This document shows positions 3,528 through 5,270 of a stretch of 64,000 nt of DNA, in pieces. Positions within the stretch are counted from its first letter, which is position 1; the number at the start of each line of letters is the position of its first letter. A program made the translations under genes and the position numbers. The notes below the pieces were generated by a model. The model worked only from the letters and a program-made list of their open reading frames with translations. It was not told where the DNA came from and searched no databases. This DNA is from Candidatus Gastranaerophilales bacterium (lineage in GTDB: Bacteria > Cyanobacteriota > Vampirovibrionia > Gastranaerophilales > Gastranaerophilaceae): positions 1 to 64,000 of the forward strand of contig CALUPY010000009.1 of the NCBI GenBank assembly GCA_944322755.1. The letters run 5' to 3'.

Positions 3528-5099
3528 TCAGTCTAAAACTCTTTTCAAATCCTCATCAGGATTCGATGTTGTCTTTAAATATCCAAATTTATCAGCAAGA
3601 AAATTGAGCATATTCGGGGTAATAATCTCTGCAGAACACACGGGCAAAAAGATATTTTTAATACCCAAATGTCTCAAGCTAAACAAATGAGAGATAGTAT
3701 GCAAATTACACCTTGTTAGAAAAACCGTTATCGGAAATTCACTAAAATCTATATCCTGTTTTAATTTATCAAGAATTTTATAGATTAAAGATGTATTAAA
3801 AAATGAATTCAAATGTAAAATGTTTTCCCTGTCTGACTCCACAACAGTAGAAATAGCAAAAGTATTTTCCGGAAGCAGATTAATTATCTCTTTAAAATAT
3901 TCGGAAGAAAACATAGTATGATTTATCAGACCGATAATAAACAGATGTTTAATTTTTCCATCTTTAATTTTACTGATAATATTTTCAACCTCACTCATTA
4001 CCATATCTTCATCATATCCTACTTGTATAGAATGATAATCAGTTTCTTCCCTAAAACCTTTTGCTTCTTTAGCAGCTTCAATTATAGGAGTGAAATCGTT
4101 ATTTTCTATTTTAGATATACCTTTTCCGGAGAGTTCGTTTGTGGTAAAAATTCTCCCTCTCATAAGTCTGTCGAGTTTGTGCTGTGAATTTCTTGTAATT
4201 AAAATAGCACCTTTAAACATTTCAAAATCCATTTGCAGATTATCGAGATTCTTCTGGAAATGCCCGACAAGATTTTTATATTTATCAAATTTTGGAAAAG
4301 AATGGGCAACAATAAGACTGTCATGCGTATAAACATTTATTTCTTCATCTTTAAGTGCGTCAAGCAAAAGTTCAAAGTCTTTGAGGTTTTGTCCTGATGC
4401 CAGTATAGCCGGGCCTTTTTTGACATTACAGGATACTTTTTTAAGCCGTATTTTTCCAAAATACTCTTCCCGCGCTTTATGGAGTTTTTGATGTATTTCA
4501 AAATTTATCCTTGCAAAATCATTTATCTTTTTAACCAGCTTTGACGCAGTTATAGATGTAAAGTTCAAATTGTTAAACAGTTTTAAAATTGCAATTTCAT
4601 CATCTCTTATATCTGCAGAATAAGATTTCAGCTCCATAAGGCGCATGCTTGCGCTTTTTAGCAGCTGTAAAATTATTTCAGTCAAATTCTTATTGACGGC
4701 AGAAAGCGTTTTTATTCTAAGAAGAGCCTGTTTTTCTCCTTCGTTAACAAGAGAAGAAAAGTCCGTGGCATCAAGTTTTATAGGTGACTTTAAAATTTGA
4801 CAGTCCAGATTTTTTTCTTCACAGATTTTTATAAAAACCTTCTGAGCATCTTCTTTTTCAAGATGAATATCTCTTATTATATTTTCAAACTCTCTGCGGT
4901 TAAATTCATAACCAACAACAATTAAAGACAGATATTTTATAATTTTGTCATTCAACTGCCGATTCTCATATCCGAGCTCTTGCATTTTTACGACGTAATA
5001 TGTAATCTGTTTTAATTCATACAATAAAACCTCTATAAGCGAATACACAAGAGGATCAACACTGCAGCTTCCCTGCACTGCACAGTCATTATATCTCAT
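3528..5099 (-). CDS. Hybrid cluster protein (Hcp/prismane) homologue lacking the metal ligands
   Basis: 523 residues from the ATG at 5099, which has GGGGAC upstream; a frame start at 5126 has no ribosome site. The C-terminal two thirds align by eye with Hcp: KKGPAILASGQNLKDFE, EINVYTHDSLIVAHSFP, LVGHFQ, KGAILITRNSQ, GRIFTTNE, KIKHLFIIG, LRHLGIKNIFL. Hcp binds a 4Fe-4S and a hybrid Fe-S-O cluster and reduces hydroxylamine or NO. Here the cluster cysteines are replaced: TTNC reads TRNS, GGCDG reads GLINH, the LTxAC site reads STVVE, GQCND reads FFNTS and WxEQK reads TRCNL. The N-terminal CxxC-type cluster site is also not evident. The His of NVYTH remains. The fold is therefore probably kept but the chemistry lost; the function is unknown. 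Confidence 0.8.
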   Translation of the reverse strand: MRYNDCAVQGSCSVDPLVYSLIEVLLYELKQITYYVVKMQELGYENRQLNDKIIKYLSLIVVGYEFNRREFENIIRDIHLEKEDAQKVFIKICEEKNLDCQILKSPIKLDATDFSSLVNEGEKQALLRIKTLSAVNKNLTEIILQLLKSASMRLMELKSYSADIRDDEIAILKLFNNLNFTSITASKLVKKINDFARINFEIHQKLHKAREEYFGKIRLKKVSCNVKKGPAILASGQNLKDFELLLDALKDEEINVYTHDSLIVAHSFPKFDKYKNLVGHFQKNLDNLQMDFEMFKGAILITRNSQHKLDRLMRGRIFTTNELSGKGISKIENNDFTPIIEAAKEAKGFREETDYHSIQVGYDEDMVMSEVENIISKIKDGKIKHLFIIGLINHTMFSSEYFKEIINLLPENTFAISTVVESDRENILHLNSFFNTSLIYKILDKLKQDIDFSEFPITVFLTRCNLHTISHLFSLRHLGIKNIFLPVCSAEIITPNMLNFLADKFGYLKTTSNPDEDLKRVLD

Positions 5100-5270
5100 T
5101 TTGTCCCCGGTAAAATAATTAAACATAAATGTATTCTAAAACCATTAACTCATTGAATCCATTAGATAACAGGCTAATATGGAAATAGCCGGATTCGATG
5201 TATTATAATCCTGATTTTTATATAGTATAATTTTTTATGTAATCAGATTTAACAATACAAAGGGGTTTAT

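Follow-up and report, generated by a model that had tools for sequence, protein, structure and literature searches.

Hybrid cluster proteins (Hcps), enzymes of nitric-oxide chemistry, are regarded as defined by their hybrid cluster. The open reading frame (ORF) studied here lies in a stretch of 64,000 nucleotides from a Candidatus Gastranaerophilales bacterium (the window), and it raises the question of what an Hcp homologue may be kept for when the residues expected to hold that cluster are gone. The ORF is a full-length Hcp homologue, with similarity far above chance. It matched the full hybrid_clust profile (TIGR01703) at 6.1e-70, where 236.2 bits stay under the cut-off of 360.8, and Pfam Prismane (PF03063) at 1.7e-37, where 129.7 bits against a gathering cut-off of 27 pass the superfamily threshold. 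The score against the equivalog NF003658 was 237.6, below the cut-off of 367, and a PDB search gave the Hcp 8cnr at 1.2e-39, covering residues 1-531 of the ligand-less protein, hereafter pseudo-Hcp. A preliminary description, made from the letters of the window, had called the protein collinear with Hcp; this is borne out by end-to-end matches in Prismane, hybrid_clust and the solved Hcps, and the similarity by profile search is significant in both families. The same description reported an intact ORF of 523 codons. The frame is indeed open, but that length was counted from the inner ATG and the frame reaches further upstream (Table 1). From the outer start, which is conserved across the family, the N-terminus reads MFNYF..C15..C21 with the spacing of Hcp (MFCYQC..C..C); the inner ATG is preceded by a Shine-Dalgarno-like GGGGAC. 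Either of the two may be the true start. In the region 5099-5140 a TAGAAT box stands immediately before the outer ATG, and both this box and the GGGGAC are kept in same-genus relatives.

Table 1. Features of the pseudo-Hcp gene, in window positions; counts refer to clade members
Feature	Position	Strand	Remarks
Pseudo-Hcp ORF	3528..5126	minus	532 aa; 523 aa from the inner ATG at 5099
Stretch formerly holding the seven hybrid-cluster ligands	3705..4391	minus	Q246, S270, S314, L400/I401, V429, about 443, N474
C15 (5082-5084) and C21 (5064-5066)	5064..5084	minus	Two cysteines still kept from the earlier [4Fe-4S] motif
C102	4821..4823	minus	New conserved Cys, N-terminal helical domain; 52/60; mostly missing in true Hcps
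C473	3708..3710	minus	New conserved Cys beside the former Glu494 ligand; 56/60
C497	3636..3638	minus	New conserved Cys, loop after the next strand; 56/60

Ligand positions were read from alignments to five solved Hcps and from a family-wide alignment, and are given in D. vulgaris numbering. At H244, E268, C312, C406, C434, C459 and E494 the window protein has Q, S, S, L or I, V, no cysteine and N, respectively, the exact column being uncertain at C406, C434 and C459 in the pseudo-Hcp alignments. All seven hybrid-cluster ligands (one histidine, two glutamates and four cysteines), which are conserved in all three recognised Hcp classes (PMC10502027), are replaced. The only cysteines of the protein are residues 15, 21, 102, 109, 233, 473 and 497; the whole sequence was read and no cysteine was found between residues 234 and 472, therefore no alignment can restore the four cluster cysteines. 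The Fe-S-O active site has been lost. In the N-terminal [4Fe-4S] motif, C3 has become N and C6 has become T, and C15 and C21 are kept, so two of the four cysteines remain; across the clade, cysteine stands at C15 in 51 of 60 members and at C21 in 53. The earlier claim that each hybrid-cluster cysteine and glutamate had been replaced was upheld by both the gap in cysteines and the alignment with structurally known Hcps, which places no cysteine at these positions. The N-terminal cysteines, said not to be evident, are partly present, with just C3 and C6 missing, and the statement that both Fe-S sites are lost is probably right for function, although C15 and C21 still mark the [4Fe-4S] motif.

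The preliminary description also proposed that the fold be predicted, and the prediction returned that of Hcp. The AlphaFold2 model (26 aligned sequences) had a pLDDT of 86.4 and a pTM of 0.87, with a poorly defined N-terminus (residues 1-15 below 50). The best structural match was D. vulgaris Hcp 1e1d (Z 31.4, rmsd 3.9, 508 residues, 20% identity), Foldseek of the model gave 8cnr at 1.1e-26, and a second family member (L129) was modelled with nearly identical secondary structure. The window protein is thus predicted to keep the Hcp fold over the whole chain. Its closest likeness is to class I Hcps (D. vulgaris 1e1d, M. thermolithotrophicus 8cnr; TIGR01703/NF003658), with which it agrees in length, in the order of its domains, in predicted fold and in the spacing of C15/C21, and with which it has many glycines and the NVYTH, LVGxF, RIFTT and LGIKNI blocks in common. 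It differs from them in lacking the seven hybrid-cluster ligands and C3/C6, in having gained C102, C473 and C497, in scoring under the family cut-off, and in that its relatives adjoin glutaredoxin rather than ferredoxin genes. In class III Hcp (M. marburgensis 7e0l), a C67Y variant without the [4Fe-4S] cluster still folds its HCP domain (PMC10502027); unlike the pseudo-Hcp, class III Hcp has a middle region about 100 residues shorter and keeps all hybrid-cluster ligands. The Ni,Fe-CO dehydrogenases and CooS-V are distant fold relatives, with structural matches at Z about 15-16, well under those of the Hcps, and they differ from the pseudo-Hcp in their longer chains, their cluster ligands and the absence of such a thiol set.

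That the ORF is a decaying pseudogene, or an artefact of assembly or alignment, is hardly credible. Divergence of the pseudo-Hcps between genera is high (about 30% identity), as decay would have it, but in about 60 loci, drawn from many metagenome-assembled genomes, almost every frame is intact, dN/dS is low and cysteines are conserved; moreover, the missing cysteines between 234 and 472 do not depend on any alignment. On the intact frames, the low dN/dS and the conserved cysteines this explanation was rejected. Within the genus, the NG86 dN/dS is about 0.04-0.07, a rough figure since dS is saturated, and dN of pseudo-Hcp and true Hcp in the same genomes was 0.091 against 0.092 and 0.123 against 0.123. 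Between genera the pseudo-Hcp evolves faster: the window genome (G000) and G008 share 57% identity in the pseudo-Hcp and 80% in the true Hcp. Pseudo-Hcps change fast between genera and are held by purifying selection within the genus. The earlier view of an Hcp-family pseudoenzyme kept under selection, for which the Ka/Ks ratio within the clade had been named as a check, agrees with the predicted fold, the clade-wide ligand loss, the low dN/dS and the dN equal to that of true Hcp.

How far does this loss extend? We sampled 60 genomes of the window's family (order Gastranaerophilales), the window's own and 59 relatives. A ligand-less Hcp was present in 57 of these and a complete true Hcp in 27, with fragments only in two more. 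In a quick maximum-likelihood tree the ligand-less sequences all fall into one clade (SH-aLRT 100); because of long branches and the quick method, finer detail of the ancestry is tentative. The search of relatives for the same ligand losses, suggested beforehand, thus found the loss common to the whole clade, and its scope is larger than was first held, since the clade occurs in nearly all sampled family genomes. Six loci of the phylum outside the family were read; five have every ligand and the sixth, partly masked, has those that are readable, so that by sequence all six are true Hcps. The distribution also bears on the proposal that the pseudo-Hcp serves a true Hcp as regulatory or scaffold partner, for example in a heteromer. 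The window genome encodes both, its true Hcp (G000:C1) having all ligands, and the fold is common to the two. However, about half of the pseudo-Hcp genomes have no complete true Hcp, which argues against a partner role, the true Hcp is absent from the closest relative (G003, protein 89% identical), and the two genes were unlinked in every locus examined. Such a role is quite improbable, and as an obligate one it is ruled out by the distribution; as a general role, the earlier suggestion of a partner Hcp elsewhere in the genome is not supported, the recurring genomic partner being a glutaredoxin. One genome (G048) has two complete true Hcps (C5:89522-91045 and C7:99689-101215) beside a pseudo-Hcp.

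Outside the window's family, several relatives have lost ligands in part. L090 (family f7) keeps all four [4Fe-4S] cysteines, E268, C312 and C406, so that this protein has lost hybrid-cluster ligands but still has the [4Fe-4S] cysteines; L106 and L107 keep C15, C21, E268 and C312, and L094 and L102 have lost nearly all ligands. L090, L106 and L107 may record intermediate steps. The L090 protein (L090:803-2446) scores 367.2 with NF003658, barely over the cut-off of 367, despite missing H244, C434, C459 and E494, and is likely to be misnamed hydroxylamine reductase, which is a warning of misannotation at that cut-off. A family of large ORFs (1145-1291 aa, cluster 37) adjoins the partial-loss Hcps of f7 (L090:2580-6014 and the neighbours of L106 and L107).

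The loss of ligands is accompanied by newly conserved cysteines, and the columns of C102, C473 and C497 hardly vary although the family evolves fast. C473 and C497 follow an all-or-none pattern: both are present in 56 of 60 members, neither in four, and one alone in none. On the tree each changes twice, in two independent double losses, too few events for significance by independent pairs. In Mm HCP, the regions around Glu434 and Trp461 shift by more than 5 Angstrom upon loss of the [4Fe-4S] domain (PMC10502027). The C473 and C497 regions match these two, and by this analogy we infer that C473/C497 are near the expected place of C15/C21. A further set of conserved residues (D300, Y410, N435, H275 and R323) suggests that a pocket may be maintained, which would suit a sensor or binding protein for NO or another small molecule that uses the emptied cavity, with cysteines of structural value only. 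This is improbable, as there is neither a regulatory domain nor a consistent regulator neighbour, and both the paired cysteines and the glutaredoxin linkage would be left unexplained. In a sub-clade of eight loci (L083, L084, L087, L091, L092, L095, L097 and L099), the pseudo-Hcps are mostly shorter (about 480-535 aa) and most are gapped around the C434 position; they have no glutaredoxin neighbours, and C473/C497 occur in all eight.

In 25 loci the pseudo-Hcp gene is directly preceded on its own strand by a glutaredoxin ORF, at -8 to 30 bp in 24 and at 63 bp in one. Among non-tandem same-strand upstream neighbours within 30 bp, 24 of 24 were glutaredoxins, and the remaining tight upstream neighbours are tandem pseudo-Hcp copies (L050, L051, L053). 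The linked glutaredoxins carry a CP[YF][CS] active site and have domain scores above the cut-off (PF00462, 22.9 bits) in two families, of 76 aa (41 bits) and 88 aa (58-67 bits). They are normal members of the glutaredoxin and GST-N-like redoxins (PF00462, PF13417), with CPYC or CPYS and the VP motif, and differ from the usual redoxins by their tight operon with a pseudo-Hcp. The linkage occurs in two sub-clades. Pseudo-Hcps linked to the 76-aa type keep C15 and C21, whereas of those linked to the 88-aa type all five are without C15, most are without C21, and C473/C497 are missing too in two. Many linked loci share rpsL-rpsG-wecB synteny and so are not independent; at L063, L065, L075, L077, L080 and L089, the flanks are altered and the pairing of pseudo-Hcp with glutaredoxin is kept. 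76-aa glutaredoxin genes that are not next to a pseudo-Hcp lack close neighbours on their strand, with the exception of one suspect overlapping ORF. Upstream of true Hcps in this order there are ferredoxin and/or Rrf2 regulator genes, and the true Hcp of the window genome sits after an Rrf2 regulator gene. At the pseudo-Hcp locus of the window's own lineage there is no adjacent glutaredoxin, and the specific 76-aa type is missing from this lineage, which has a distant homologue only; hence the partner was invisible in the preliminary description. The window gene is flanked by a divergent M16 peptidase gene 144 bp upstream and by purH about 150 bp downstream, and homologues of the glutathione synthesis genes gshA and gshB stand side by side in its genome. 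A literature search found no paper on a tight glutaredoxin/pseudo-Hcp operon, as far as the titles and abstracts of papers naming both Hcp and glutaredoxin tell, and none that links Hcp with a pseudoenzyme or with Gastranaerophilales.

Since the fold is kept, the Fe-S site lost, new cysteines gained and glutaredoxin frequently paired, an Fe-S enzyme seems to have been put to another use in Gastranaerophilales. The explanation that we tentatively favour, at somewhat less than an even chance, is that a former Fe-S-O enzyme is kept as a cysteine-based redox protein served by glutaredoxin and glutathione. An Hcp paralogue would have lost its active site early in the order, with its scaffold retained and its clusters replaced by the thiols C15/C21, C102 and C473/C497. 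C15/C21 would be a remnant of the [4Fe-4S] site, and C473/C497, beside the emptied active site, probably form either a disulfide with redox activity or a pair of shared ligands. For this thiol mechanism, which we infer, resetting would come from glutathione and glutaredoxin instead of ferredoxin or Hcp reductase, and the role may lie in nitrosative or oxidative stress. The pseudo-Hcps linked to the 88-aa glutaredoxin deviate, so that one set of cysteines cannot account for every member.

The chief rival is a new metal site, [2Fe-2S] or Zn/Fe(Cys)4, built from C15, C21, C473 and C497 across the former interface between the [4Fe-4S] and active-site domains, to which glutaredoxin would deliver a cluster or from which it would remove one. 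Of the N-terminal [4Fe-4S] cysteines exactly two survive, and the two gained ones stand in loops which, in Mm HCP, pack close to the [4Fe-4S] domain (PMC10502027), and several linked glutaredoxins have the single-thiol CPYS. We consider this site unlikely, as the four cysteines are not lost together: C473/C497 are kept in members that have C12 only, and L067 has C15/C21 but neither C473 nor C497. The N-terminus of the model is, in addition, of low confidence. A broader proposal, that a metalloenzyme fold was turned wholesale into a thiol-redox or new cysteine-metal protein, giving up the hybrid cluster and half of the [4Fe-4S] site and gaining the C473/C497 pair, and that glutaredoxins of different families replaced ferredoxin at least twice, is rather doubtful. 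If true, this conversion would represent a near-universal and so far undescribed redox system of Gastranaerophilales. The existence of a large clade lacking every ligand shows that the Hcp scaffold is useful apart from its cluster.

Some genomes carry pseudo-Hcps in tandem. Pairs with overlapping stop and start codons occur in G053 and G018 (L050:1015-4217; L051:429-3685), and G014 has three copies at 10-17 bp spacing (L053:5020-9882), each with a different N-terminal cysteine pattern.
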